A stretch of DNA of 23,427 bases from a virus. Below, piece after piece: positions 3,339-23,427 of the stretch; within the stretch, counting starts at the first letter, position 1; every line of letters starts with the position of its first letter. Made by a program: the position numbers and the translations under genes. The notes below the pieces were generated by a model that saw only the letters and a list, made by a program, of their open reading frames with translations, had not been told where the DNA came from and did no database searches. The stretch is from the IMG/VR virus record IMGVR_UViG_3300043395_000716, positions 1 to 23,427 of that record; one strand, 5' to 3'.

Positions 3339-3610
3339 TTTTTTACAAAGTATTTAAAATGAAAGATGGCCCCCCAGGTAAACACTACAGCAAGTCCTAT
3401 ATTCAAAATGACTTCTGAGTCTTGAGGATGAGAGCATGTCAAAAAATTGAATAATGATCCAGCACTAACTAGAGCTAGTCCAGCTTTGATAGATACTCTT
3501 TCCAGAGTACTAACTCTATCCATCATATTGCTTTTACCAAATACAAAAATCATAAACATTGCAACAGCAATGGTTATTAATAAATTAGCTATTAGGTTTA
3601 GGAGTATCAT
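3335..3610 (-). CDS. small holin-like membrane protein, three TM segments (91 aa)
   Basis: The ATG overlaps the preceding TGA as ATGA (3610-3607), suggesting translational coupling. Three hydrophobic segments are visible: about residues 3-23, 42-58 and 68-84. Between the first two is a short polar linker with M-D-R-V-S-T-L-E-R. This is the size and topology of class I holins, which make inner-membrane lesions that release the endolysin or depolarise the cell. Located two genes downstream of the L,D-transpeptidase-like enzyme in the lysis module. Family-level assignment is not secure. Confidence 0.6.
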   Translation of the reverse strand: MILLNLIANLLITIAVAMFMIFVFGKSNMMDRVSTLERVSIKAGLALVSAGSLFNFLTCSHPQDSEVILNIGLAVVFTWGAIFHFKYFVKK

Positions 3611-3891
3611 TTTTTTGAAGATTTTACAAGTTTGTTACTTACTAGCTCAACACCTTTAAGACCTAAGAAACCCAACACAAATCCTACAGATATCTCATAC
3701 TTAGGGTCTAGTCTGATAATATCAATAAACACCGGAGTAAGATAGTTAGCACTAGCTACTCCTGAGATAATAGAAAAGATGCTAGTCTTCCATTGTAGTG
3801 CTGCATCTTTCCCTATAAGTATCAATGAGCCAAACAAGCCTGCTACTGATATACCTATATTGATACCTATCTCCTCTAGTATTTCTTTCAT
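3607..3891 (-). CDS. small holin-like membrane protein (94 aa)
   Basis: The ATG (3891-3889) overlaps the TAA of the peptidoglycan-enzyme gene as TAATG. The protein has a hydrophobic, glycine-rich helix at about residues 10-26, a middle region of moderate hydrophobicity (about 35-52), and another hydrophobic segment at about 66-82, ending S-N-K-L-V-K-S-S-K-K. A basic C-terminal tail after the last membrane segment is common in holins. Direct coupling to the putative peptidoglycan-degrading enzyme makes a holin role plausible, but similar small membrane proteins also occur as virion accessories. Confidence 0.6.
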   Translation of the reverse strand: MKEILEEIGINIGISVAGLFGSLILIGKDAALQWKTSIFSIISGVASANYLTPVFIDIIRLDPKYEISVGFVLGFLGLKGVELVSNKLVKSSKK

Positions 3892-4436
3892 TAAAATTCT
3901 TTTAGCAAGGTATAAGTAAACTTTCTAAACCCAGACTTCTTGCATTTGTCTAACAACTGTGCAAATTGTTTTGGGTCATTAAGTACTTGACATCCCGCAG
4001 ACCATTTGTCTATAATCTTAGATATCATACTTGGGTTAGCGCGGTGTATATTAATACCAAACAACCCAGTATCCTCTTTACCTTGTTCCTCAGCTACATC
4101 GTCACGATCTGCATCTCTATAAACAGTAATAGGTGCGCATTGAACTAAAGCCTCGTATTTACCTTGATGTAAACCTATCTTCCAACAATCATCCCATTGA
4201 CCTGGCTTTAATACAGCCGATCCTTTTGGGTTAAGCAAGTTTTGTAACCAGTGTGTCCCAGGATTAGTGGTACAAGAATACCAACTAACTGTATCTTTTT
4301 CTACTACACCAATAAGATCATCAAACTGATTCTTAGCATTTGCATTAGATCTAATACCTACTAAGTGAAATACTGGCCATGGATAACCTAGTCTCTCAAA
4401 CTCTGCTTTAAGTTCTTTAGTTGTATACTGTCTCAT
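3891..4436 (-). CDS. L,D-transpeptidase-like peptidoglycan-active protein (candidate endolysin)
   Basis: 181 residues from the ATG at 4436, which overlaps the preceding TAA as TAATG; an ATG 7 codons upstream (4457) is possible. Key features are G-I-R-S (27-30), T-T-N-P-G (56-60), K-P-G-Q (77-80), V-Y-R-D-A-D-R-D (105-112), and at the C-terminus F-G-I-N-I-H131-R followed by S146-A-G-C149-Q-V. H...S-x-G-C is the catalytic His/Cys arrangement of YkuD-type L,D-transpeptidases, and the whole pattern matches a family of phage proteins often annotated as hypothetical or as lysis-linked. It probably cuts or rearranges murein cross-links. It directly precedes three holin-like genes, so the endolysin role is a reasonable inference; a virion-associated murein function is the alternative. 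No signal peptide, so export would depend on a holin. Confidence 0.7.
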   Translation of the reverse strand: MRQYTTKELKAEFERLGYPWPVFHLVGIRSNANAKNQFDDLIGVVEKDTVSWYSCTTNPGTHWLQNLLNPKGSAVLKPGQWDDCWKIGLHQGKYEALVQCAPITVYRDADRDDVAEEQGKEDTGLFGINIHRANPSMISKIIDKWSAGCQVLNDPKQFAQLLDKCKKSGFRKFTYTLLKEF

Positions 4437-8300: not shown

Positions 8301-10974
8301 TATACTTACTTACAAGTAATGATCTTTCTTCATATAATTTAGTAAGTTCATCATTGACTACGGGTTGATTAGCTAATCTTAATAAGTTCTTTTGTTCTTC
8401 TTTTAATGTAGCTAACTCATCAAATATAGCAGCTCGTTGTTCATAGAAGGTAGGCTTAATTCTAATTCTAGTATTTAGTTTTAACCAGTTGTCTATGTGC
8501 TGGTTATACTCATCAGATCCGGGTTGGATGTTTTTATCTACCAAGCTTTGAGCAAAGTTTAAGAATGCATTCTGGAATACCCCACGTAGAGGGATCTCAT
8601 CATACATATCTTTGCTGGCTTTTTGAAACTCTTGCAATCTCTTTGCTATTTCAAGATCTAGTCCTAATTTCATTTTACCCCTTTCATCAAGTAGAGAGTA
8701 AAGTTGTTTCTTTCTTCTATGGAGTACTTCTAACTCTTGCATGTACTCATACTGTTCATAGTCTGAAGCAATAGCGTTGTTGATGTTTCTAATCTCAGAT
8801 TCAATTTGGTCTAGTCTATGTCTAGCTTCTTTACCAATGTCATCTCTTTCTAATATATCATACTTAGCATAGTACTTATCTGTGTACTCTGTATGCATGT
8901 ACTTTCTTTCCCAGTCTCGCTTTTGATTAATCAGATCTGTAACTTTAGAATAGTCTTTGGTATCTACAGCTTCTTTCTTAGCTTCTTCTATCTTAAAGTT
9001 CCATTCATCAATATCTTTTTTATAGTGCTTCCAAGGATTTAAGTATGTATAAGCTTGATAAGCATTAAATTTATTTTTATCTCTTCCTCCTACTAAGTCT
9101 ACAAAAGTAGTTCTCTTACCAAGTTCAGCTATATTACCTGGATTAAATCCTGCAGCTTTTAGCAAAGGTTCTATTTCTGTAGCATATCTGTTAGCCTGAA
9201 GTTGTGCTTTTGTTTGTACATCTGTAAGATTATTCTTTACATACATTGCAAATCCAAAAACTATAGGATCTTGGTTATTCATGTACCCTTCTAAGAAAGA
9301 GTTAAGAGCATGAGCATCTCCAAGTTCTCCTTTCATAAGAGCCTCTATCTTTTCGGGATTAAGTTTTAATTCTTCGTATTCTCTTTTTCTAGCTTCTATA
9401 ACTTTCTCGGGAGCATTCTTTTTTTCTAAGAAATCAATAAGCTCTGTATATTTTTGATCTATAGATTCTTTAAGAGGAATAAGAGTATCATAAATAATAT
9501 CTCTAGTTCCAGCCATATATACTTTATTGGTAAATACTTTAGATTGTTTTATATTACCTTGTATTTTATTTGCTAATTGGTATATGGCACTGTTAGTCGT
9601 AAGACCGGCTAGTGTAAATGCTTGGTCATATTCATTTATGAAATTTTGTAATGTATTAATAACATTATTCATATAGAATACAGCTTGTAAGTTTTCTTTA
9701 TTATCTGGGTCTTTTGATAGTTCCTGAAGTTTTTGATTAATTTTAAGAGTTATAACATCAAGCCTTTCCATACTATTAATAAAGGCCGTCATCTTAGCTC
9801 TTTCAAACTCTATAGACTGTGCAGCTGCTCCAAGAGGAGTTCCAGATATAGTCTGGTATCTGCGTATAGAAGAAAGAATCTCACGTAGATCAGATCTATC
9901 ATACTCATCTCTAAGTAGTTGTGCGGCTAGAGTATAGTCCTTGTTCTTCTCAACTTTATTTACGGTGTCCTGTATAACATCAAACATCCGGTTAATACTA
10001 GCCTGTAACTCACCAGCTCTTTCAAGTTTGCGTAAATCATTAAAGTATTGAGTATGATCACGGACATAAGCAGCAAAGTCAGAATCAGTAATAATGTCGG
10101 TATTAAAAGTAAACTCAGTACCAGCCTCAATCATCTTAGCTAAGTCAGACAAAGAAGTAGTAGGGGAAAGAGACTCAACAGAAACTTTGCGTCCAAAGGC
10201 TTTGCGTAATAATTGCTTTATAGCGTAAAGTACTTTGCCAATAAATGTTTTCTGTACAGGAGTAAGGTTGTTGCCTAGTGCTTGTAGATTAACAAGGTTA
10301 GATAGGTGTGTTACTATCACCTCCTCCTTAAAGTATTCACTCCCCTCTTCCAAATAATTATACTTCTCCTTAATCTGTTCTATTAATTCTGGGTTACTAG
10401 CTAGTACTTCTGAGTACATACTATCTATAGCTCCCTTCTGTCCTGCTCTAGCTATGGCTCTTACAAAGGGATGCACAAATTCATGTAGTACAGAGTTTGC
10501 ATCTATGTAATCTGTTACTAGATATACTTGTCCTCCTAAGAAAAATGCTTTATCTCCCTTTCTATATTGTAGTTCCTGAGGTAATGACGCAGTAGCTGCT
10601 ACAGCCTGGTCTTCTGTTACCATAGTATATGATATCCCAAACTGTTGTTCTAGCTGGTTAGCCATGTCTCGGATAGCTCCTATAGACATAACCTTATTAG
10701 CAGCTTCCGTAGTTACTTCTATGGGCTTTGCAAATACTGAGTACTCTGGCTTAGATAATACATCTCTTCCAAAACCTTCATAGTTATCTACAAAAGGTGC
10801 TGCCTGAGACTTCTCTAAGAACTTACCTTGTTCATTTAGTATAGGTAATAACTCTTCAGGAGTCATCATGGGTCTATTCTGCATCTCTGCGGTTACGGCT
10901 TCTCTCCAAGCAGTAGCTTCATCAAATGCATTTTTTATAGCGTCAAATTCCGGGGTTATGTTTTTACAGGCCAT
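5320..10974 (-). CDS. giant virion-type protein with zincin metallopeptidase domain (1,884 aa)
   Basis: Starts one base after the stop of the giant polymerase fusion. Residues 161-170 read S-V-L-H164-E-F-V-H168-P-F, a zincin HExxH motif; the E-E at 217-218 is a candidate third metal ligand, matching the layout of MPTase domains of phage polyvalent proteins. Residues ~300-1010 are mostly charged helical and coiled-coil-like sequence. Residues ~1090-1300 are mixed, and ~1410-1660 are rich in aromatic and basic residues (R-Q-V-M-F-L-K-R-W-F-I-R near 1631-1642). A strongly hydrophobic membrane-like helix lies at about 1703-1724, just before an acidic D-A-D-D-D-E segment. By analogy with crAss-like phages it should be one of the large proteins stored in the capsid or tail and ejected with the DNA. 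The late membrane segment could let it insert into, or form a conduit through, the host envelope (inference). The protease could act on host proteins or process the giant proteins themselves. Confidence 0.8.
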   Translation of the reverse strand: MACKNITPEFDAIKNAFDEATAWREAVTAEMQNRPMMTPEELLPILNEQGKFLEKSQAAPFVDNYEGFGRDVLSKPEYSVFAKPIEVTTEAANKVMSIGAIRDMANQLEQQFGISYTMVTEDQAVAATASLPQELQYRKGDKAFFLGGQVYLVTDYIDANSVLHEFVHPFVRAIARAGQKGAIDSMYSEVLASNPELIEQIKEKYNYLEEGSEYFKEEVIVTHLSNLVNLQALGNNLTPVQKTFIGKVLYAIKQLLRKAFGRKVSVESLSPTTSLSDLAKMIEAGTEFTFNTDIITDSDFAAYVRDHTQYFNDLRKLERAGELQASINRMFDVIQDTVNKVEKNKDYTLAAQLLRDEYDRSDLREILSSIRRYQTISGTPLGAAAQSIEFERAKMTAFINSMERLDVITLKINQKLQELSKDPDNKENLQAVFYMNNVINTLQNFINEYDQAFTLAGLTTNSAIYQLANKIQGNIKQSKVFTNKVYMAGTRDIIYDTLIPLKESIDQKYTELIDFLEKKNAPEKVIEARKREYEELKLNPEKIEALMKGELGDAHALNSFLEGYMNNQDPIVFGFAMYVKNNLTDVQTKAQLQANRYATEIEPLLKAAGFNPGNIAELGKRTTFVDLVGGRDKNKFNAYQAYTYLNPWKHYKKDIDEWNFKIEEAKKEAVDTKDYSKVTDLINQKRDWERKYMHTEYTDKYYAKYDILERDDIGKEARHRLDQIESEIRNINNAIASDYEQYEYMQELEVLHRRKKQLYSLLDERGKMKLGLDLEIAKRLQEFQKASKDMYDEIPLRGVFQNAFLNFAQSLVDKNIQPGSDEYNQHIDNWLKLNTRIRIKPTFYEQRAAIFDELATLKEEQKNLLRLANQPVVNDELTKLYEERSLLVSKYRDKDGQPASLEMTPEILEKVKVLEDKIKLAKEQLLTRSGLTKAEQSELNRLSEKKDNFLYGMSTEQPTQQEYARRRELIDKRIKRQSKNLSSEAEAALKREQEVYDRMLELYKNLENIQTNDPTDDYITVLNSYFSEFSDDVKQVFLNMGIKEFTLENIDIFDNIYFVEVLRNNNEDFKKWFDENHVEENFYNSQSGQSETKYKRTAAWSVTRPSSIDHYETTEIVNPDGSPRKILGVPIGKYYRYQVKQEPAAGFVTKKVTIREAIAAGDITKANWDGFNWLPKLDVRNQDGTPDTTYVENEFFKVKNSDPALYNLLIKLIDEHLALQENKAPEERLGLEIPRYEKSNLEALQSRNFIDAEGNEVKQNPISVFMNKVRAFWKGRADDFQRGFNAEEQKQFVNTDLFDDRISNIPMTGKYRLDLVDTSLDILTGTMRYMLSLEKNQKLREMSPTARALQEVLRDPVNAAKETNTYSKRAMLNRSLEKQITKKGQTIRSKAIDNFIEREFEGKNQTGMLANNKWVTNLSNFMLHSSALGYFALNIPSAIKNSMGARIQGVIEGAAGRFYNNRDFAKGTVWANKTMAEVSFQIYKYGPKSLNVQLTELFDPTSGFYAEGDDMKFGENLTRTFKKDAVEIGSLLTNTRKWTELNAAYSIFGAMMYSQKVPQIVDGETRMIPYIEAWEIVDGQAKLKEGVDPSWGQGGANFKIYRNKIQAVGNNLNGAFGKFDYSEADRYLLYRQVMFLKRWFIRMFMNRFQFRGNLLDPKARYDAGLNDTYMGFYIEALRTMKEGIATGGKSFSAMTKEQKQAFMRIIMDAAILIAMTMMISMLFGFDADDDEKYEKLRKKSGSLPFNFLGIVKTADDPEHPFNMGGYISNNLLALTLQTRQEQLNWIPLPKMGLSAYASYLNFQSLAVTSTIEAYVKILSQSINLLTGDESAYYKRAAGPYEHQQQGGSKAENYFLKMFGFTGSTTDPVKATKDFISTLNRKGEG

Positions 10975-10975
10975 T

Positions 10976-13900
10976 TTATATACTGCAGCTTAGTGCTTCA
11001 TTTTTAAGTTTATTAAATAGTTCAAGCTCATTTACTCTCTGGTTACTTTGTACTGTATTTACTATAGTATTAGAACCTAAAGAGTTAGGATTTATGAAAC
11101 CAAATTCTTCATATAACCTCTTAGACAAATATACGAAAGTTTTAGGTGCGGGAGACTTATCTAGTATAATAGTACTAGGACTTAATGGGTCTCTACCTAG
11201 TAACTCTTGACCATAACCATTAGCATCAAGCACTACATCTTTGTCACCTAAGTTTTCTACAATCTGCTGAATAGCATCTTCTATTACTTGGATGTTATCA
11301 TCATAGGTTTCATCTGTCATTATAGAGTTTGGAATCAAGGTTCCGTCTTTCTTATAAACATTAGGTAAGTACTTGTACGGAATACTTCCGTATGAACCAG
11401 GTCCTAGTTGTACTAGTGTGGTATTAGATCCTGCATAACCTGTAGTGTTTCTAGTAGTAGCTCCAGGTTTGATAGCTATGCCTGATCCAATAAAGATGGT
11501 ATTAGGATTAGCTTCTTTAATAGCATTGATGTTAGTTTGGTTAAATGTCTTAGATTCTACAGTTCCAACCTTATCATCTTTAGCTTTAACTCCGGGAATA
11601 CTAAATGTAGGTACACCAGTTCTCTGTTGTTTACCCATACCTAGTACAGTTGTTACAGGAGTTGCTACAGGTTGTGATGCTATCTGCTGGTTAGTAGTAT
11701 TTACTTTACCAATTTTTGCAGGACTAGTAGGCATACCTGCTTCTAGGTCAGCAGCTCTTCTAAATGTAAGAGTAATTGTATAGTTTTCTACAACAGTTCC
11801 GTTAGGTAAAGTAATAGGTGGAAACTTCTGATCTCTTTTTACACCTTTAGGTGTGTCATGAGCTAGTTCAAATCTACCTTTACCATCCATACCAAAAGTA
11901 TAAATAGTTCCATTTTGAGTAGGTATTTCTTTTCTAGAATTAGATGCAAAAGATGGTGAACCAGGATTATTTTTATCTTCATAAATTCCAATTCCACTAT
12001 TATTACCTATAGTATAAACTACAACTGGGTAGTTTCTAGCACTAAGACTTTCTGTAGTATCTCTATGTGTTGCAATATTTTGACCCGGTAAATATATATT
12101 ACCAATTACAGCATCATAGTTAGACATGTCAATACCTAGAGCATTCTGAATCTCTGTAATAATAGGTTGCAAATCTGAAACAGGAGCTAATGGATTTCCG
12201 TTTTGGTCTAGTGTATCATATACATATGTATCCTTAGCTTTAGCATCTGTAATAGGTAATCCTTTGTTTGCATAGCTTTTATTATTAAGAGGTGCTTTAG
12301 CAGTACTCTTTCTAGTCCAACGTAGTCCATACATGAACATGTCATTAGCTGTACCAGAAGCATTTTCTTTATAAGCTTGTGCTCTAATCTGGGGTTGGAT
12401 AAGATCTACAAAATCCTGAGTCTTATCAGCAGATGGTTTAGTTTCTGCTACCACTACACCATAAGGTTCAGATACTACTTGCTGGTTAGTACTTACAGAA
12501 GTTTGTTGTTGAGTAACTTCAGGATTTTTACCCCAATAGTTGTAGCCCTTAGAAGTCTGTCCTGTAGGTTCACCTAATTGTTCTTGAACCAAAGCTTCAC
12601 CACTTGCATTCCAAGATCTATTAGCATCTATAGTAGAATCCATGATGACTGTACCACCTGCTTCAATAATTTCTCTAGCTGCTAAATATGTATCTTCAAT
12701 TTGTTTATCTGTAGCTTTATTGTTACCATTTACAGATACCATAGCAATGACATCGGGTCCAGCTTTTATTTCATTATTAACAGGAAAACCTTGTTTTTTA
12801 GCATCCTGCATATACTGATAACTAGAAGTGCCACTATTAGGATATGTTATAAGTGCATTAGCTAAATCAGCTTTACCTTGATCTTTACCTTTTTTGTCTA
12901 TTGATAGTTTAAATCCTTTTGCTTTAACACTAGCTTGTTGTTGAGATGGTTGTACTTCTTCTTTTTTCTTAGGTGTTGTAGCTTCAACAAAGTCTTTTAT
13001 AGCTTTATCTGACATGTTAGGGTCAGCATAGAATCTAAAGTTAGGATCATCAAAGATTTTGTATCTCTTGCTAGCAGAAGTTTTTTTAGATGGATTAGCT
13101 TTCTTAAATGCTTTTAAGTAACTATCTAAGATTAATTCTTGTAGAGGTGTTTCACCTACTTGCATGCCTTCTACTTTATCAATAAGAGATATAAAGTTAT
13201 TTACAGAAGGCATAAGCATCTTACCTATCTCAGATGGATTAGCAATACTTAGCACATTAAACGTACTCTTTGGTGTGGTAGCTCCCTGAATATAGGCGTA
13301 TGTAGTAAATCTTGAGAAGAACTTAGCAATGTCTACAGCATCTTCCATAGAGATGTTAGCAAACTTGTCTTTAATTGTTGATGCGTCAGAAAGCTCTGCT
13401 ATGTTTTCAGCATATAGATCTTTTTGATCTTTGGTTAATCTGCTATCTCTAAGTACTAAGTTTATAATAGGATTCTTATCATTAGATGAATTCTTATCTA
13501 AAGCCTCCATTACAGGATAATACTTACTAAGAGTTGGGAATGCTTTCTTAATATTCATAAACTGGTCAGCATAACTATTACTACCGTGGAATAAATGACT
13601 TGGTAAGTTCATATTATCCATAGCTGCATTACGCAAGTATGTTTCATATGCCCAAACTGCAGCTGTTGCATTAGCATCTTTTACCTTAGTTTCTATTTCT
13701 TTTCTTGTTTCATCTGGAGTTTCTTCTGTCATCTCCATCTCAGCTTTAAACAGATCTTTATTATGACTACGGTAAAGATCTTTCATCTGGGAAAGAATAC
13801 GCTTATACTCTTTAGTCTTAGATACTGTATCAAAGTTGTAGTCTGAAGAACCTCTTAAGCTTTCTCTTTCTAGTAAGAATCTTTGATATAGTTCTTTAGC

Positions 13901-16900
13901 TTTAACATCATTAAATCCAGAAAAGATATTAGGTTGTAATGGAGCTACATTGTTCTTAAGGAAGTACCTGTATATATTAGAAGCGCTTGATGAGTAGTCT
14001 TTATTATTAAATGTTTCATTTACAGTAGCTGTATCATAATAGATTTTACCATCTTGGTATAATGCACCTCTTCTTAGAAACTCTGCTCTCTTTAAAGCAA
14101 ACTCGCCATCTATTTCTCTACCGCGATATACTTTACCTATCTTGAAACTATAGTAGTCATTTTGGAATAAAAAAGGAATAATCTGTGATCTAAATGATTC
14201 AATAGCTCCTTCTGGGTCTCCTGCAAAAGAAGTACCGCGTGCTATATATCTACCTATGTTTTCTTCACTAAGGTAGTTATTCATAGCTGGAGAAGAAGTA
14301 ACCGGGAAGAAAGGCTCCCATAGTTCAAGCATAAAGTCTTGGACCTTAAAGCTTCCTATTGGAGAGTTTGCAATGATAGCTTCAAATACCTCTTTGTCAA
14401 AACCTCTTTCTTTAGCTGCTTTATTTTCTTTTTCCAATTTAGCTCTTGCTTCAAACAAGCTACCACTACGTGTAGTATCATAGTTCATAGCAAGCTTAAT
14501 TTCCGTAAGACCTTTAGACATCTGCTCCAGCTCTAAGAAATGCATAAATGCTTTTCTATCTTCTTTAGTATATTTTTGGGTACTGTTAAAGTTTTCTATA
14601 TTCTTTTTTAAAGCTTCTTTTGTAAATAGACTAGCATCTGCATCAGATACTAGTTCTTTTATAGCATTAAAGATTTGCCATTTATCAGGCTTACCTGTAA
14701 AGCTACTTTGGCTGGTCATGCTCTGAGGATCCCAGATAAAACCAAATTTAGGATCTAAGAATAGAATATTATTTCTAGCATCTACAGCATGCTGATTTTC
14801 ATCTGACTCCTTATCAATTAAAGGAGCAAACGTACCTCTTCTTAGTTTAGAATCTTTTACATACTCTCTAATCATAGGTTGAGATACAAAGAGAGCTGCT
14901 TGCTCTAAAGATACTCCGGACTGTACTAATAATAGTAATATAGGAGCTAGCTCTTTATTTCCTTGTAAGTCAAAGATCCATTCATCTTTTTCTACGTCTA
15001 CCCAACCATTAATCAACTGAGAGAATACATCTGAAATTTTATTTTCATTGTTTACATCATACATATGAGAAAGAGAGATCTTGCCATTTATAGTGTTATG
15101 TGGCATCAAGATTCTATTTGTCAAGTAGTATGGGTTTCTTTCTTTCTTGGTCTGACCTTCTGTTGTACTAATTTGAGTTACATCAGATAAGTAAGCACCA
15201 ATACGGTTAAAGATAGTATTATAAGTATTGTCTACAGCTCCTAAACCTAGTGCTGCTTTACCTACAGCATTATAGTCAAGCTTGTAAATATTATAAAGAG
15301 GCTCATAGATTCTTGTAGCTGAGAAACCTTTATCTTTACTTGCAAACTTGTTACGTGAAGAGTACTCTCTAGTCATCTTTCCTAAATCTTCTGATATAGG
15401 CTTAGCAATGTCAGTACCATTAGGAGTAACCAAGCTAACAAAGTTTGCCGGATCTGAAATAAGATCTATAGAAGCATACATTAAACCATTTTCTAATCCT
15501 TTAATGGAAATATCATCCGTAGGTAAACTAATCTCAAAGTCTGTTTTTGATTCTAGAATGTTAAGTATCTCTTGATCTTCTGGAGTTAAAGTATATACAC
15601 CATCTGTTCCTTCAGCAGCATCTAAAATTATATTTACATTATCCTTGCTAAAATCTAAATCAGGATTAGCTTCTTGTAACTCATTTAAAAATTTACTAGT
15701 TAACTTAGCTTTGTTTACTTTTTGACTAATGTTAGGCATCTGAATTGTCATCTTATCAATGTCAAAGTCAGATCCTGATTTAGCTACAATCTCAGCTGGA
15801 GGAATAATAATATTACCTGCTTCTTCTGGTAAGAACTCATATACTTCCATGAATTCCATAGAGTTCAAACCTTGTACAGGAATACGAACTCCCATCATGG
15901 TAATCATCTTTCTGTTATTACCTTCTGATAACCAAGCTTCATCTTTAATTAATCTATTAAGAGCATCTGTTTTACTAATACCTTCAGACTCAGATAGTTC
16001 CGCTACTTCTTTTAAATTAAGTAGTTTCTTAAACTGTCCTTGTAAAGCTACTTTAACTTTCATAGCCTTGGTACCAGCTGCATCTTGCTTATAGAAAGGA
16101 AGATCATTACTACCGTACTTTTCTATATCAGCTTCTGTAGCATTAGCAAATTTACCTGCTGCTTCAAATCCAGCACCAGATACTTGAATAAGAGCTTCAC
16201 CATTAACCTTTTGACGGATTAATCTTTTATTGACTACAGCTGTCAAAAGTTTTTCTATTTGACCTCTATAACTAGACAAGTCAAAGTTTACATTAGGTGA
16301 AGTCTTAAGATCATTGATAAATTCTAATTCATTATCAGCAATCTCTTGTCTAGATAATTGTTTTTCTACAAAATCTAGTAACTTTTTAAGATCAGGAGTA
16401 TTAGTTTGTTCTGTCCAACCTACTTCTCTAACAAGCTGTTGTTTTAATTTAGCTGTAAGAAGTGCTAACTTAGATTCATAAGTTTTTACTTTCTTCCAAA
16501 GTTTAGATTCACCTTCTTTATCTTCTACTTTACGCCATTCTTCTACACGTGTTTGCTTGTCTGTGATCTGGGGCTCAAAGTCAATAGGTACTCCATTTTC
16601 TATAATACCTTCTTCTACAAGCTTACGTAGCTGGGTAGAGAATGTAACTTTACCTTTGTATTCTGGAGCCACCTCTGTTTGATCTTTCATGTAATCAGCA
16701 AAGACAACATTAGGTGTAAACTTATACTCCGGATCATTTATACTAAGCTTACGCGTCTCATTATCAAGGAAGTTATCAAACTTACCATTTGTGCCTATAG
16801 TAGCAATCTTAGAACCTGATTCAAATAAAGAGTAGTCTATTTGTTGTTCTACCATTTTATTATGAAGCTGCTCTAACTTAGTACCTTTAATTACTGTTGG

Positions 16901-19900
16901 CACCAAAGGCATTAATGAGAATTTATGAAATGCGTATACAGGAAGCCCGTCTGTTGCTAGAGGTCCCCAGTATTGCATCTTCTTAACTGGGAAGAACTTA
17001 GCTACATCTAACGCAGATACTTCCTCACCAGCTAGGATTTTATTATAAAGCTTTTCATGTACATTAGTATCCCACTTATTAAGGGATTTCATAAGAAGTC
17101 TATATGAGTCAAGAGTAATCCACCCTTGAGCATCTCCTTCTTTCATAGCACCATAAGCCTCATCAAATCTTTTCTTAATAACTTCTTCAGCTTTATTAAT
17201 TTGTTCCTGAGAAGCATTTAAAGATTTAAGTCTTGTTGTTTCTGCATCTATTGCAGCTTTAGTATATTCTTTTAGATATTCAGACTTAGTTACTTTATCA
17301 GCAAATACAGATGATCTAAATGTACCATCATAAGCTCTTTGCTCTACTGCAGGTCCTGTATACCATTTAGATTTAGAGTAGCTACCTCTTTTGTTATTTA
17401 CAAAGTTTTGGAAGTCTACTCCAGTTCTTGGGATTTCTCCTGTAGAACCTATACCCGCATTACGCTTATGAAACTCTTCTTTTAAATGATTATATAAAGC
17501 AGGATCACCGTAGAATACAATACCTGTTTCTACATTATGGATGTACTGATTAAAAGTAAATGCTTCTATTAAAGATCTTTTTACATCTGCAGGGTTTAGA
17601 TCTGAGAACTTTTCTCCTGGCTTCATGATCTTGTTAGTAATAGCTCTAAATAAATAAGGGCTATCCATAGCACCGGAAGCATCTAAAAGAGCTATACTTT
17701 CATTAACAAGCTTATCAAGATAACTATTAAGTTGTGTATCAATATCATTCAACAACTTAACATTAGAATCTAAGTGCTCTAAGAACTGTTCTACTGTAGT
17801 AATGTCTTTATCTTGTAGCTTAAGTAATTCTGTTTTTTGATCAGCCGTTAAGATGTCATCAAACATTTGGAACTTGCTACCTGTATCAGCAAGAGTAACA
17901 ATCTTACCACTCTTTCTATAGAGTAGTTTATCTTTAGCAGACTCTTCTGTTTTAGCTTTATGAATTCTTTCAAACTCTGCAGCTAAGTATCCACGCATAG
18001 CACCAAGTACTTTAGATCTTCCGGGACTAATACCCATGTTATCTGACCTAAAGTCTGAAGGTTCAAAATAATGTTTACTCTGACTCTTTACACCTTCTCT
18101 AGCACGTACAATCTGGTATAGAAATGTAGAACTCTTACCAGCATGACGCACAGCTTCTGATGTACCATATACAAGATTCATGTAGAAGTCTTGTAAGAAC
18201 TTAGTAGTAGGATCTGATATAGATGACTTGATACCAGCAATTTCAAATTCTTCATCACGGATTTTACTTCCGTCCATGTCAAGAATATTAATTCTTGCTT
18301 GTACAAGCTTCTCTCCTCCTACAGTTACAATTCTTCTAAACTTCTCAGCGCTCTTCATGTCATAAAGCTCATCTAATAAAAGACTTACTTTAGACCAAGG
18401 AGTTCTTTCTGTAGAAAGGTGATTCATTCTAGATATAGTACCATTAGCTGTATTCTGTACAACATCTGTATCTTGTACTACATCCTGGAAGTTCATACCG
18501 TCATTTAAAGAATCCGCCATCTTTGTGATGGTGTTTGGATTACTTCTTTCATACTTGGTTTTACCCATAGTAGTAGTAACAGTACTATTAGAGAAGTCTC
18601 CAGTCCAGCGTAAATAAAATTTACCTAGCTCTTTCTTAATTGTATTACTTGCACCTAAGTTATACCCTGTTTTGTAGTTAGGATTAGTTAGGTCGTTGAA
18701 TATATCATTAACATTTTCAATAACTATGATGTCCTTAGAGTTACCTTCCTTGATTCTATCAGCATTAAATCTGTTAATAGTGTTTAGCTTCATAGCCAAA
18801 CCTTTAATCATTTCCGGATAACCTGTTGCCTTATCCTGAAGACCATTTCTTACAGCTTCTACATTAGGCATTGTAACTCCCATAGCTTCTAAAAACTCAA
18901 ATATTCTAGTAGGATAGTTACGGTTAAACTCTTTCATCAAAGCTTCTGTATCAAGATAGTTTCTTCCTGTCTTAGGATTTCTCTTGATATAAGCTGTTTC
19001 ATTAGAACTAAACTGGGACTGCATTTTATTGTAAACCTTTGTAGTCTCGCGACTTGCTTCACCAGGTTTAACTGTAACTTTAGCAATCTTTTTTGTAGTT
19101 ACTTGAGTTTCATTACCAGCATCATCCTTTCTTGTAACCTTTTCTCTTTGAATCTCAACATCTAGATTTACAACATTAACACGGGGCATTGTAAGAATCT
19201 TTTCAATGCTACCCCACATGCTATTCTCTAATTCTGTTTTTACTTCTAAAGGACTTCCTACTTTATTTAGGAACTGACTTACTATATAATTTGAGCTAGC
19301 TAATTTCTTTAGTGTATTATAAACCTCTATGGCATTTTTAGAACCTTCTGTTAAGTTAGAAAGCTCATTGAATACTTTAATCTTGTCTTCTAACTCCGCA
19401 AAACCTAGGTCATTCAACACAGGTTTGTTTTTCTTAAAGTCTTCTTCAGAATCATACTTGCGTATGCTAGACATGACACTTAATAATTTAGGATCTGCTA
19501 AATTAATAGAAGCTATTTCATTACCTGATTTATCAGCATACTCACTTCTACTAGTAATATCTTGTTGGTCTGATTCTTCTGTGTATGCTGAGAATCTTAG
19601 TTTTTCATATTCTCCAATAACACCTAATCCATTTTGAGCATATTCAGACTCTCCAAAGTTATTTATCATCCAAGTAAGAAGATCTATCTTCTTTTTTAAT
19701 TGGGCTGGAACTCTAGAAGTTTTGCTTGCTCTTTCATTAAGTGCATTAAGTTTATCTTGTAATGTTTTTTGTACATAATTATAAGTACTTTTTCTAGTCT
19801 TAAGATCTGTAAGAATTCCTAAGGTATATGGTGCAGTTGCTTTGCCGGCAATCTTAGCTTTTGCATTTAGCTCATCTACAGCATCAGACATAATAGAATC

Positions 19901-22900
19901 TATAGTAGCAAATGCTAGATGGGATTCCGCATTACTTAAAATCTGAACAGGATCTTCTTTTCTAGTAGCTTTAATTTTATTAAGACCTTCTGAAAAACTT
20001 GCTTCTATTTCAAAGTTAGGTGTACTTAAATCTCCTACACGTAGTTTTTCAAACATGTCAGAGATATTCTTATCTGCTTTTGCATCTGCTAAGGTTTCTC
20101 TTGTAGAAGACCCACCAAACAAATGCTGCAGTGCTGTATAAATAGCATCAAAGATTTTAGCAATAACAGATTTTTTAGACTTCTCATACTGACCTTTACC
20201 TCCACGCAACATGTGCTCACGGAACTGCTCAGCTAACCATTCTTCTGCTTGTAGTTTATTAGCTTCAGAATACTTAACTTCATTCCCCATATAGTCTGAG
20301 AAACTACCTTTCTTCTTACGTACTTGATTATATAACTCTTCTCTCTGAGCATTGGTTAAGAACACCTGAGAGAAACCATGCCATGCTTCATGATACAAGT
20401 CTGATGTGTCAGCGCCTTTCCATAGAGTAATACCGGCTTTAGTCCAGGTAGCTACACCAGCAGAAGTCATGTTTACAGCATTGAATGCTAACGTCAAAGG
20501 AATAATATCGCTAAGCTTTCTACCATCTGGTAAAGTAAGACTCATATACCAAGGAATAGCTTGACTTAGTTGTTCTCTTGTAGCTGCTAGATTTCTTTTC
20601 TTTTGAGTATCCAGCATATTAAAGATATCTGGATCATTTAAATTATCTGCAATATTATCTAGAATATCTTTAGCACTCTTAGATGAGTTTTGAATATCTG
20701 AATTTTTGATAGCCTCTTGAGCCTTTTGACTTTTTAAATCAACAAGATCTTCTATTTGTGCATTAAACGCATCATTTATATTAGCAAGAACTTCAATAGA
20801 AGGCATAGGAAATACTAAATCTTTATGCCTGGGATTTCCAGCAGATCCTAACTCATGGGATCCACGACCAAATCCACCAAAGTAAGAAGATGTGACATGT
20901 ATAATTTTTTCATCATCTGTTACGTTAATTTTGTTAGTTTGATTATCCTTGGTGTTACCTGTTCGCTGAAAAGTTTCATCATAATACTTTAACTTTTCAT
21001 AAAGATTTAATAAATACTTACGTGTATCTGCAGAAAGTTTTGCTAAAGTTTGCTTAGATATATCATTGGTTCGTTTATCATTAGCTTCATAAAATGCTTT
21101 TTCAAAAATTCTAAAAAGTGTTTGTTGTGTAATATTAGGCAGATTTGCAGACTTGGTAGGTGCTGGTTGAGTTGGTTTATTTTCTACAGAAGTTTCTTTA
21201 GTAGTTGTTTGTTGAACAAACTTTTTAAATCCTTCTATATCTTGTTTAGAACCTAATTCAGTAATAACATCTGAATCAAAAACTACATATACATCTTCAG
21301 GTTTAGTTTGATATCTGCTGTCATAAGTATCTTTAATAATTAATCCGTCATGTCCTAGTTCTTTAGCTTTCTGAATTCTTTCAAAGTAAGTTTCTTCTCT
21401 ATATTTTTCTCCTTTGTCTGAGACGATTAAAGGATTTTTTAGTTTAAGAGTAAAAGGTCTAATAAATAAATTTTCAAAAGGTTTATCAGTTATACTTCTA
21501 TCTTTGTCTATATATACACCAGCATCTGAATCATAAGTATCCTTTAAATGCTTTGTTCTTTTTTCAAGTTGATCTGTGAATTTAATTTTTGCTTTTATTA
21601 TAGATCTCTTAGACGGATCAATCAACTTGCTTAAAATGTTTTTAGTAGGTTTAGGAGCCAACTCAGCATTTTTACTATTTTCTAATTGCTTCTCTGCTGA
21701 TAATAGTTCGTTTTCTCTACCTGGATTTTTTTCTACTATTTTTTTATACCACTCTACAGACTCTTCAGCCCATTTTATATCTTTCTTTTTAGTTTCTTCA
21801 GGTGATTCTAGTTGAGATAAATCATAATTATCAATATCTGTATATACATCACCGTACTCATCACTGGAATCAAGCACTGTTCCATCTATATAAATAACAA
21901 CTGTATGGTATATAGTATCATAATCCTCTATATCTTCTTCATAATAGTAGCGTCCTATTTCATCAGAAGACTGAAGCCTTAATTCGGGTTTTTGTTTAAT
22001 TAAAGAATCTACATTAAGAGTATCTCCTCTTTTATCTAAGTAGGATCTGGATACATCTCTTGAACCACCAAAGAAAATACCTTCTTTTGCAGAAGCGGCT
22101 CCTGTATAACTTCCAAGTTTTGATATATCAAACTTTTCAAAGTATTCCGGACTTCCATGATAAACAATAGGTGTATCTTTAGTATTAAGATATTGAGAGT
22201 ATTGTTCAGGTGTTCCTACACTAGCTAATTCAGGATTAGAATCAAATAGTTCTGCTACTTCTGGTTTAGTTTTAGTAGTTTCTTCAACACCTAAAGCCGC
22301 TGCAACAAACTTACCTGTTGGTAAGAAGTTAAGATATGAGTTAAATGGAGTAAAATCTCCACCTTCTATCTTTTTACCTACGGATGCATTTTCTGTAACA
22401 AACTGGCTGTAAGGAACTATGTTTTCAGATAATGTAAATACTCCATTAGATTCTTTAACAGAGAACTTGTTTATGTTCTTAGCTGTGTTTTTGTAAACAT
22501 ATCTGCTGGGTACTATATTACCTTGAGAATCTTTTGTTTCAGTTAAAGCTTTTACAATCTCTTCCTCACTAGCTTGAGCTATAGGTTTTCCATTTAAGAA
22601 ATACTCCTTGCTTTTAGAATTAAAACCTAATCCTGTAGTAGTACTTGGTGCTAGATATGGAAATAATAAGCTAGCTTTTTGAGTTGTTGTTAGTTTTTGA
22701 CCACCTCTTACTACATCATTAAGCAAAAGACGAGCTATGTTTCTAGCTACATCTTCCGAAAAGTTATTCATTATTATGGCTACATCCTGCTGGTATCTAG
22801 GTACTCGCATAAATGGAGCTCCTGACTCATCAACTCTAAACTCTATAGTAGGGTATAATGATTTAGATAACTGTGTTAAAGGCACAAGGGCTTTAGAAGA

Positions 22901-23427
22901 ATCTAAAAAACCTAAGCTTCCACCTGTAATAGCTGAAATAATTTGATTTGAGTTTGGATTACTACTAATGTAATCAATCATCTCACCTAAGTAAGCTTCT
23001 TGCTTTTTTAGTGTAGCAGCTTCTTCATCTGTCTTAGGTTCTTGCACTTGTTCTAAAGATAGACGTACAGGAAAATATACAGGCATACCTTGTTCTTTAG
23101 TGGTAACATTACCTTCTTGATCAAAGTAAATTATATTTCCTTCAGAGTCTGTAACTGTCTGAATAAATACTTTATCATATCCTTTAGCTAGGTCTGGGTT
23201 ATTTTCTGTTTCCCTCTGAGTTTTAGGATACATCTTACGGACTGGTAATCTAGACATAGCCATCATAGTAAGATGAGCTTGTCCTTTTATACCAGGATAA
23301 TTAGGATTTGAAACTAAGGCTCTTTGTACTTTATAGTACATAGCCATTTCAGGATCCTTTACATTATTTTCCGGGATTCTATTTTCTTCGTCTGTTTGAG
23401 CTTCTTGACCTGTGGTAGCAAATAAAG
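10976..23427 (-). CDS. giant multidomain virion RNA polymerase fusion (>4,123 aa, 5' end outside window)
   Basis: The first ATG in the window is at 23347 (4,123 codons; residue numbers below count from it), but the frame stays open for 26 more codons to the right edge, so the start may lie outside. Domains in order: PolyVal-type ADP-ribosyltransferase-like, about 395-697 (Y-H-G-S 396-399, G-I-F-F 423-426, G-H-D-G-L-I 665-670, V-V-F-D 688-691). Zincin metallopeptidase with H986-E-A-W-H990 and E-E-W-L-A-E near 1035. RNA polymerase core, about 2370-2750, with R-L-I-R-Q-K-V-N-G-E upstream, then M-G-V-R-I-P (2485-2490) and G-S-D2527-F-D-I-D2531-K-M. The last part corresponds to the R-x-P ... N-A-D-F-D-G-D motif region of cellular beta-prime. 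Unassigned alpha/beta domain about 3485-3610. AlkB-like Fe(II)/2-oxoglutarate dioxygenase about 3655-3866 (N-I-Y-L-P-G, H3761-R-D3763, H3830, R3863/R3864). Unassigned C-terminal domain about 3945-4095. The polymerase should be carried in the virion, ejected, and used to transcribe early genes. Polymerase identity is very secure; roles of the fused domains are inferred. Confidence 0.92.
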   Translation of the reverse strand, partial: LFATTGQEAQTDEENRIPENNVKDPEMAMYYKVQRALVSNPNYPGIKGQAHLTMMAMSRLPVRKMYPKTQRETENNPDLAKGYDKVFIQTVTDSEGNIIYFDQEGNVTTKEQGMPVYFPVRLSLEQVQEPKTDEEAATLKKQEAYLGEMIDYISSNPNSNQIISAITGGSLGFLDSSKALVPLTQLSKSLYPTIEFRVDESGAPFMRVPRYQQDVAIIMNNFSEDVARNIARLLLNDVVRGGQKLTTTQKASLLFPYLAPSTTTGLGFNSKSKEYFLNGKPIAQASEEEIVKALTETKDSQGNIVPSRYVYKNTAKNINKFSVKESNGVFTLSENIVPYSQFVTENASVGKKIEGGDFTPFNSYLNFLPTGKFVAAALGVEETTKTKPEVAELFDSNPELASVGTPEQYSQYLNTKDTPIVYHGSPEYFEKFDISKLGSYTGAASAKEGIFFGGSRDVSRSYLDKRGDTLNVDSLIKQKPELRLQSSDEIGRYYYEEDIEDYDTIYHTVVIYIDGTVLDSSDEYGDVYTDIDNYDLSQLESPEETKKKDIKWAEESVEWYKKIVEKNPGRENELLSAEKQLENSKNAELAPKPTKNILSKLIDPSKRSIIKAKIKFTDQLEKRTKHLKDTYDSDAGVYIDKDRSITDKPFENLFIRPFTLKLKNPLIVSDKGEKYREETYFERIQKAKELGHDGLIIKDTYDSRYQTKPEDVYVVFDSDVITELGSKQDIEGFKKFVQQTTTKETSVENKPTQPAPTKSANLPNITQQTLFRIFEKAFYEANDKRTNDISKQTLAKLSADTRKYLLNLYEKLKYYDETFQRTGNTKDNQTNKINVTDDEKIIHVTSSYFGGFGRGSHELGSAGNPRHKDLVFPMPSIEVLANINDAFNAQIEDLVDLKSQKAQEAIKNSDIQNSSKSAKDILDNIADNLNDPDIFNMLDTQKKRNLAATREQLSQAIPWYMSLTLPDGRKLSDIIPLTLAFNAVNMTSAGVATWTKAGITLWKGADTSDLYHEAWHGFSQVFLTNAQREELYNQVRKKKGSFSDYMGNEVKYSEANKLQAEEWLAEQFREHMLRGGKGQYEKSKKSVIAKIFDAIYTALQHLFGGSSTRETLADAKADKNISDMFEKLRVGDLSTPNFEIEASFSEGLNKIKATRKEDPVQILSNAESHLAFATIDSIMSDAVDELNAKAKIAGKATAPYTLGILTDLKTRKSTYNYVQKTLQDKLNALNERASKTSRVPAQLKKKIDLLTWMINNFGESEYAQNGLGVIGEYEKLRFSAYTEESDQQDITSRSEYADKSGNEIASINLADPKLLSVMSSIRKYDSEEDFKKNKPVLNDLGFAELEDKIKVFNELSNLTEGSKNAIEVYNTLKKLASSNYIVSQFLNKVGSPLEVKTELENSMWGSIEKILTMPRVNVVNLDVEIQREKVTRKDDAGNETQVTTKKIAKVTVKPGEASRETTKVYNKMQSQFSSNETAYIKRNPKTGRNYLDTEALMKEFNRNYPTRIFEFLEAMGVTMPNVEAVRNGLQDKATGYPEMIKGLAMKLNTINRFNADRIKEGNSKDIIVIENVNDIFNDLTNPNYKTGYNLGASNTIKKELGKFYLRWTGDFSNSTVTTTMGKTKYERSNPNTITKMADSLNDGMNFQDVVQDTDVVQNTANGTISRMNHLSTERTPWSKVSLLLDELYDMKSAEKFRRIVTVGGEKLVQARINILDMDGSKIRDEEFEIAGIKSSISDPTTKFLQDFYMNLVYGTSEAVRHAGKSSTFLYQIVRAREGVKSQSKHYFEPSDFRSDNMGISPGRSKVLGAMRGYLAAEFERIHKAKTEESAKDKLLYRKSGKIVTLADTGSKFQMFDDILTADQKTELLKLQDKDITTVEQFLEHLDSNVKLLNDIDTQLNSYLDKLVNESIALLDASGAMDSPYLFRAITNKIMKPGEKFSDLNPADVKRSLIEAFTFNQYIHNVETGIVFYGDPALYNHLKEEFHKRNAGIGSTGEIPRTGVDFQNFVNNKRGSYSKSKWYTGPAVEQRAYDGTFRSSVFADKVTKSEYLKEYTKAAIDAETTRLKSLNASQEQINKAEEVIKKRFDEAYGAMKEGDAQGWITLDSYRLLMKSLNKWDTNVHEKLYNKILAGEEVSALDVAKFFPVKKMQYWGPLATDGLPVYAFHKFSLMPLVPTVIKGTKLEQLHNKMVEQQIDYSLFESGSKIATIGTNGKFDNFLDNETRKLSINDPEYKFTPNVVFADYMKDQTEVAPEYKGKVTFSTQLRKLVEEGIIENGVPIDFEPQITDKQTRVEEWRKVEDKEGESKLWKKVKTYESKLALLTAKLKQQLVREVGWTEQTNTPDLKKLLDFVEKQLSRQEIADNELEFINDLKTSPNVNFDLSSYRGQIEKLLTAVVNKRLIRQKVNGEALIQVSGAGFEAAGKFANATEADIEKYGSNDLPFYKQDAAGTKAMKVKVALQGQFKKLLNLKEVAELSESEGISKTDALNRLIKDEAWLSEGNNRKMITMMGVRIPVQGLNSMEFMEVYEFLPEEAGNIIIPPAEIVAKSGSDFDIDKMTIQMPNISQKVNKAKLTSKFLNELQEANPDLDFSKDNVNIILDAAEGTDGVYTLTPEDQEILNILESKTDFEISLPTDDISIKGLENGLMYASIDLISDPANFVSLVTPNGTDIAKPISEDLGKMTREYSSRNKFASKDKGFSATRIYEPLYNIYKLDYNAVGKAALGLGAVDNTYNTIFNRIGAYLSDVTQISTTEGQTKKERNPYYLTNRILMPHNTINGKISLSHMYDVNNENKISDVFSQLINGWVDVEKDEWIFDLQGNKELAPILLLLVQSGVSLEQAALFVSQPMIREYVKDSKLRRGTFAPLIDKESDENQHAVDARNNILFLDPKFGFIWDPQSMTSQSSFTGKPDKWQIFNAIKELVSDADASLFTKEALKKNIENFNSTQKYTKEDRKAFMHFLELEQMSKGLTEIKLAMNYDTTRSGSLFEARAKLEKENKAAKERGFDKEVFEAIIANSPIGSFKVQDFMLELWEPFFPVTSSPAMNNYLSEENIGRYIARGTSFAGDPEGAIESFRSQIIPFLFQNDYYSFKIGKVYRGREIDGEFALKRAEFLRRGALYQDGKIYYDTATVNETFNNKDYSSSASNIYRYFLKNNVAPLQPNIFSGFNDVKAKELYQRFLLERESLRGSSDYNFDTVSKTKEYKRILSQMKDLYRSHNKDLFKAEMEMTEETPDETRKEIETKVKDANATAAVWAYETYLRNAAMDNMNLPSHLFHGSNSYADQFMNIKKAFPTLSKYYPVMEALDKNSSNDKNPIINLVLRDSRLTKDQKDLYAENIAELSDASTIKDKFANISMEDAVDIAKFFSRFTTYAYIQGATTPKSTFNVLSIANPSEIGKMLMPSVNNFISLIDKVEGMQVGETPLQELILDSYLKAFKKANPSKKTSASKRYKIFDDPNFRFYADPNMSDKAIKDFVEATTPKKKEEVQPSQQQASVKAKGFKLSIDKKGKDQGKADLANALITYPNSGTSSYQYMQDAKKQGFPVNNEIKAGPDVIAMVSVNGNNKATDKQIEDTYLAAREIIEAGGTVIMDSTIDANRSWNASGEALVQEQLGEPTGQTSKGYNYWGKNPEVTQQQTSVSTNQQVVSEPYGVVVAETKPSADKTQDFVDLIQPQIRAQAYKENASGTANDMFMYGLRWTRKSTAKAPLNNKSYANKGLPITDAKAKDTYVYDTLDQNGNPLAPVSDLQPIITEIQNALGIDMSNYDAVIGNIYLPGQNIATHRDTTESLSARNYPVVVYTIGNNSGIGIYEDKNNPGSPSFASNSRKEIPTQNGTIYTFGMDGKGRFELAHDTPKGVKRDQKFPPITLPNGTVVENYTITLTFRRAADLEAGMPTSPAKIGKVNTTNQQIASQPVATPVTTVLGMGKQQRTGVPTFSIPGVKAKDDKVGTVESKTFNQTNINAIKEANPNTIFIGSGIAIKPGATTRNTTGYAGSNTTLVQLGPGSYGSIPYKYLPNVYKKDGTLIPNSIMTDETYDDNIQVIEDAIQQIVENLGDKDVVLDANGYGQELLGRDPLSPSTIILDKSPAPKTFVYLSKRLYEEFGFINPNSLGSNTIVNTVQSNQRVNELELFNKLKNEALSCSI

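Follow-up and report, generated by a model that had tools for sequence, protein, structure and literature searches.

The giant proteins that crAss-like phages encode in a run with their virion RNA polymerase are almost free of cysteine, except at the ends by which consecutive members of the run face one another. We consider it likely that these terminal cysteine pairs couple the otherwise cysteine-free chains, which would be packaged and threaded as one covalent train that can be released by a change in redox state. Couplings and fusions would then be interchangeable, so that cargo can be added, swapped or merged. The pattern emerged from a single viral sequence, hereafter the window, which is a complete IMG/VR record of 23,427 bases, and was followed through more than 120 related phages.

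A cassette of giant virion proteins

The giant virion RNA polymerase protein of the window, which we term B, is encoded by P1 (positions 10976–23425, minus strand; 4,149 codons), whose 5′ end is cut by the end of the contig. The P1 reading frame contains no internal stops and is still open at the contig end; an alternative genetic code was considered and proved unnecessary. As its start aligns with approximately residue 170 of relatives, P1 is short by about 165 N-terminal residues. The P2 gene (5320–10974, minus strand) begins 1 base past the P1 stop and encodes a protein of 1,884 amino acids, termed C, which the sequence-only reading had grouped with P1. Its orthologues are phi14:2 gp76 and crAss001 gp49, which a P2-family profile matches with E-values of 2e-16 and 1.1e-26 respectively; the orthology resides in the C-terminal part of P2. 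P2 also carries a second zincin motif, HEFVH, at residues 164–168 (10471–10485, minus strand). PHROGs searches with P1 and P2 gave no match. Downstream of P2, between positions 1796 and 5279, lies a block of small minus-strand open reading frames (ORFs), several of which have membrane-like stretches.

To place these genes in context we fetched 80 related loci (L001–L080), in which ORFs were called mechanically, with the first ATG taken as the start. Nearly every locus of sufficient length has the same run of consecutive giant genes, A, B and C. The best explanation for the missing upstream member A of the window phage is that it is located past the contig end. Tandem mass spectrometry of phi14:2 virions underlies the annotation of three products (gp76, gp77 and gp78) as structural, and mass spectrometry of crAss001 virions detected gp47, gp49 and gp50, which are placed in the cargo zone of the capsid (Bayfield et al., PMC10172136). 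Packaging of A, B and C in the virion is supported by orthology. The packaging and ejection that had been proposed from the DNA sequence are thus well supported for the phi14:2 and crAss001 orthologues, and it is this orthology that extends them to the window phage. An A-family profile built from the window clade had no match in the named phages, and cross-clade orthology of A is therefore assigned from position and cysteine only. The same proposal had described a single-gene 'entry kit', a description that we revise: three or more separately encoded giants appear to form the kit, and its accessory enzymes are optional.

Domain composition of P1

All domains are given here from the N-terminus of P1 and lie on the minus strand. 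Residues 1–400 (22226–23425) form the N-terminal domain of B, which is present in 68 relatives. The next module, residues 401–790 (21056–22225), is movable and resembles ART-PolyVal, with a profile match at residues 420–574 (E-values of 1e-4 to 1.5e-3) that scores 19.7–23.4 bits against a cut-off of 31.2. It has a YHG motif, within VYHGS at 22151–22165, and its copies differ strongly among relatives. The ART-like domain claimed earlier therefore stands as a putative, ART-PolyVal-like module, its motif being in place and its scores below the cut-off.

The metallopeptidase claimed for P1 is borne out. Its zincin-like region (19646–20620) carries HEAWH at residue 1012 (20378–20392), followed downstream by a Glu-rich LAE motif that would provide the acidic ligand expected after HExxH. 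The region has no Pfam match, so that its assignment depends on the motif and on the conservation of that motif. Since HE[AGS][WF]H occurs in every relative long enough to include the site, the peptidase belongs to the constant core of the window clade.

The RNA polymerase core occupies about residues 1261–3490 (12956–19645). A phmmer search aligned 789 residues of P1 (2071–2859) with the RNA polymerase of phi14:2 (PDB 6vr4; i-Evalue 1.5e-21), and the DxDxD catalytic motif is present as GSDFDIDK at residues 2551–2558 (15752–15775). By this homology P1 carries a crAss-type virion RNA polymerase, as had been predicted for the single giant chain. The crAss-type enzyme is the sole PDB sequence match of P1, which sets it apart from the T7-like single-subunit (N4-type) polymerases.

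Three further domains follow. The first, u1 (residues ~3491–3640; 12506–12955), is common to the C-terminal or N-terminal bays of relatives; its structural model is weak (pLDDT 51), and a fold search of the PDB with it gave no significant match. The second (residues ~3655–3895; 11741–12463) is an AlkB-like 2OG-Fe(II) dioxygenase module that matches PF13532 with an E-value of 6.7e-6, under the curated cut-off. Its catalytic sites are HRD at 12056–12070, the second His at 11852–11866 and the Arg at 11756–11773, and all 10 aligned copies retain the HxD, the second His and the Arg, in agreement with the earlier prediction of a dioxygenase. The third is a C-terminal DUF7831 domain (residues ~3905–4130; 11036–11713), for which Pfam E-values are 0.011 in the window and 6.5e-5 in L002, both under the curated cut-off; its model matches DUF7831 proteins with a Foldseek probability of 1.00 and has no significant match in a PDB fold search. 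The 'two unknown domains' of the sequence-only reading are thereby reduced to u1, which has no assigned family. In about 50 loci a DUF7831-type domain is the final one ahead of the terminal cysteine, and DUF7831 is also found in giant eukaryotic viruses.

Exchangeable cargo around the polymerase

Comparison of the loci shows that the predicted ART, u1 and AlkB domains behave as swappable cargo in bays before and after the polymerase, with ART also occurring in protein C. ART homologues lie before the polymerase in P1, after it in L016, L017, L053, L057, L068 and L070, and within the N-terminal part of C in L008, L038, L050 and L073. The AlkB domain follows the polymerase in most carriers and precedes it in L021 and L037/L063; it was found in none of 11 isolate or gut crAss-like records. 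Other bay contents are a PIF1-like helicase, NADAR, SLOG (cpYpsA), a zeta-toxin-like kinase and further domains. The cargo that rotates through the C-terminal bay among L001–L080 (PIF1-like helicase, NADAR, SLOG and kinase) is a possible counter-defence set.

The AlkB domains of L038 and L058 are 84.8% identical and their polymerases 37%, whereas those of L049 and L058 are 42.5% identical and their polymerases 70%. As read from these identities, the history of AlkB is uncoupled from that of the polymerase. The closest relative of the window, L003, has flanks that are 77–80% identical and lacks both u1 and AlkB. With regard to domain order across the related loci, the peptidase proved constant in those long enough to include it, and ART, u1 and AlkB shift sites or drop out. 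Degenerate accessory domains, raised beforehand as an objection to a multi-enzyme protein, are not what we found for the peptidase and AlkB, in which the key residues are kept.

Cysteines at the ends of the giant proteins

Alignment of the C-terminal bay exposed an invariant cysteine close to the end of P1. P1 has no cysteine other than this one, at residue 4147 of 4149 (codon at 10985–10987, minus strand), and we propose it as a coupling residue; its proposed partner, at residue 3 of 1,884 (10966–10968, minus strand), is likewise the single cysteine in P2. This feature, a single cysteine in each protein, had been missed in the sequence-only reading. The N-terminal cysteine expected of P1 lies outside the data, as the window does not include the start of B.

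The pattern can be stated as a rule. Protein A ends with a cysteine, B begins M-x(1-4)-C and ends with a cysteine, and C begins M-x(1-4)-C, with no cysteine at the start of A or the end of C; a protein was taken to end with cysteine when one occurs among its last 10 residues. In the discovery set of 54 non-redundant loci, the residue is present at the C-terminus of A in 42/42 cases, the N-terminus of B in 44/45, and the C-terminus of B and the N-terminus of C in 54/54 each. At the outer ends it was found in 0/18 (A N-terminus) and 0/51 (C C-terminus). The sole miss at the N-terminus of B, in L051, is a frameshifted gene with an MVNCSL start upstream. Four loci (L042, L044, L049 and L051) have an extra protein between B and C, and in 4/4 cases it carries a cysteine at both ends. 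Such inserted proteins, located at L042:15645-16370, L044:16077-16832, L049:17940-19904, L167:15769-18030 and L135:16749-19361, have no Pfam match.

Away from the ends, cysteine accounts for about 0.003–0.005% of the residues of the giant proteins. Because neighbouring mechanically called ORFs (1.23%) and off-frame readings of the B gene (1.4% and 7.3%) are richer in cysteine, base composition is not the cause of its scarcity. The residues that flank the terminal cysteines, and their exact spacing, vary. A literature search that covered sources other than the phi14:2 structure paper found no mention of terminal cysteines in crAss-like giants.

The rule in a fresh set of loci and in named phages

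We then assembled a new test set of 70 loci with the polymerases of phi14:2 and crAss001 as queries; the crAss001 scan gave only two, and scans with the polymerases of p-crAssphage and cr118_1 gave no loci. Cysteine occurs at 185/188 junction ends of this set and at none of its 113 ends that are outer or fused. Like those of the discovery set, these counts are not independent events, because the loci are interrelated. By position, it is present at 38/39 A C-termini and 54/55 C N-termini, and absent from the outer ends (0/36 at the start of A, 0/53 at the end of C). The N-terminus of B carries it in 39/39 cases when A is separate and in 0/15 when A is fused, and the C-terminus of B in 54/55 cases when C is separate and in 0/9 when C is fused.

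Fusions were verified by profile hits for the polymerase and C within one ORF, and the A part was recognised from length and position, except in L138. Five loci (L148, L151, L155, L169, which is cut at its start, and L170) encode the polymerase and C together with a long N-terminal part in ORFs of 5,178–5,639 residues that have no cysteine at all. The truncated L152 and L164 are likewise fused and cysteine-free, bringing the verified polymerase–C fusions without any cysteine to seven. These seven fusions also lack HExxH.

The named phages, which played no part in forming the rule, follow it. In phi14:2, gp78 has a single cysteine that is its last residue (1797 of 1797), gp77 has two, at residues 3 and 2179 of 2180, and gp76 has one, at residue 3. 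A reading in terms of gene junctions or translational coupling was dropped because the pattern persists in crAss001 and cr85_1, which encode A on the strand opposite to B and C; the rule therefore acts at the level of the protein. The fused A–B protein of the Suoliviridae and cr108_1 has no N-terminal cysteine, and the fused B–C protein of the Intestiviridae has no C-terminal one. Gut phages with fusions hold some internal cysteines, among which Cys 2180 of cr4_1, near the expected A/B boundary, may be a leftover of that boundary. On the polymerase tree, which has two long branches that make exact placement uncertain, fusion of A and B arose at least twice, fusion of B and C at least once, and insertion at least once. 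In one lineage, that of Dulem virus 41, the homologue of the B zincin sits at the end of A, which indicates that chain boundaries shift and the cysteines stay at the boundary.

Departures from the rule are few. The one real exception is L135:7370-16676, in which two overlapping ORFs encode the polymerase, no cysteine occurs where it is divided and the rule is broken at two ends, possibly through a frameshift. In a further exception, L143, the cysteine lies about 19 residues from the end. Four loci (L149, L150, L153 and L165) have 13–41 internal cysteines and still keep most of the terminal ones; their hosts could live in anoxic habitats. In L026:16450-17705 the B gene is in two ORFs, and its near-copy L065 is intact.

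A proposed coupling mechanism

The cysteine pair vanishes once a peptide bond joins two proteins, and so the pair appears to replace that bond. We propose that the C-terminal cysteine of one protein would form a disulphide with the N-terminal cysteine of the next, and that the absence of other cysteines would prevent mispairing. The covalent train A–B–C would then pass through the tail in order and be uncoupled once reduced in the host cytoplasm, leaving the polymerase free to fold and to transcribe early genes. Further cuts in the chain may subsequently be made by the zincin. As the triple-fusion group lacks HExxH, with the exception of L175, zincin is not needed for release there. In the first minutes of infection, ART may act on host protein or nucleic acid, and AlkB on methylated or alkylated nucleic acid. 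Native ligation or splicing was dropped as a route to joining, because the N-terminal cysteine is mostly at position 3–7, not 1, and its position is variable.

Several disulphides in the crAss001 virion, which link tail proteins or lie in a portal-vertex protein (PMC10172136), show that the virion environment can support such bonds. The text of that study, which compared virions of crAss001 with and without reduction, mentions no coupled cargo. It also counts against a disulphide train that some hosts are gut anaerobes.

Alternative explanations

The pattern reveals a pairing of ends and not its chemistry, and coupling could instead proceed, for example, through a thioether, a metal bound jointly by the two ends, or a thiol protein of phage or host that captures them. 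Thioredoxin-like proteins are indeed annotated in some crAss-like genomes. There is, however, one cysteine per side, no further conserved ligand was seen, and flanks and spacing vary, so that we regard such chemistries as unlikely.

We give still less credence to simple avoidance of cysteine, under which stray disulphides would block passage through the tail and the terminal cysteines would have no joint role. A precedent exists in N4, whose virion RNA polymerase (vRNAP; 3,500 amino acids) and two neighbouring virion proteins hold no cysteine, and this very reason has been published for N4-like vRNAP (PMC3915230). Avoidance leaves unexplained the near-invariant cysteines at junction ends, their absence from outer and fused ends, and the cysteines at both ends of inserted proteins. 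It is very improbable that the terminal cysteine is instead a packaging or processing signal, read by the prohead or the zincin, and not a link between proteins. Such a signal would accord with the constancy of zincin domains in the window clade and with the polypeptide processing that Iyer et al. propose for such domains, but it should persist at outer ends and in fusions, where cysteine is absent; moreover, no conserved motif surrounds the residue, and the depletion elsewhere would be unaccounted for. Finally, polymerase homology and the precedent of polyvalent proteins would allow an ordinary crAss-like vRNAP with polyvalent domains and an inherited, functionless cysteine pattern, but this can hardly be credited, because the cysteines follow the chain ends through repeated fusions, an insertion and shifted gene boundaries in lineages whose polymerases are highly diverged, and the pattern is thus most likely kept by selection.

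Relation to known systems and implications

Coupling through terminal cysteines would add to several systems that resemble the window cassette in part. The RNA polymerase of phi14:2 (PDB 6vr4) and crAss001 gp50 share with the window the DFDxD catalytic core and the A–B–C protein set, and are packaged in the virion; the window B is about twice as long and additionally carries the zincin, ART-like, u1, AlkB and DUF7831 domains. N4 (Schitoviridae) vRNAP gp50 is likewise a giant ejected polymerase with a zincin motif. It differs from B in its unrelated T7-type fold, in being one chain, and in being free of cysteine, the termini included. It was also used as a founding polyvalent example (Iyer et al. 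2017, PMC5512222), in which a metallopeptidase is the invariable fusion partner and ART one found in a single phage, so that the union of virion polymerase and polyvalent protein, which had been put forward as joining two separate themes, was already published for N4-type vRNAP. The annotation of p-crAssphage, too, already reads 'RNAP associated protein fused to zincin protease'. P1 qualifies as a polyvalent protein, having zincin, AlkB, ART-like and RNA polymerase domains in one chain. Polyvalent proteins as described by Iyer et al. are likewise large and ejected, with peptidase, ART and other effector domains. Unlike them, the window has a crAss-type polymerase as its scaffold, its cargo enters the neighbouring protein too, and its chain ends carry cysteines. 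Exchange of cargo around a crAss polymerase appears to be new, as does the cysteine coupling rule. Podovirus ejection proteins (T7 gp14–16, P22 gp7/16/20) also comprise several proteins that are ejected ahead of or with the DNA. To our knowledge, those of T7 and P22 are described as non-covalent assemblies, not as chains coupled end to end.

Phages of the crAss-like group are among the most abundant gut viruses, and they push several giant proteins in order through a narrow tail. Ejection order has been considered likely to be set by packing and protein–protein interactions (Bayfield et al., PMC10172136). The cysteine rule offers a concrete, testable answer to the question of ordered ejection, suggests a redox trigger for release, and predicts the membership of the ejected set in uncultured phages; were it confirmed, coupling through terminal cysteines would represent a new principle. 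The movable bays, for their part, show that enzymes ride on virion polymerases as exchangeable cargo, with possible roles in host modification or counter-defence.
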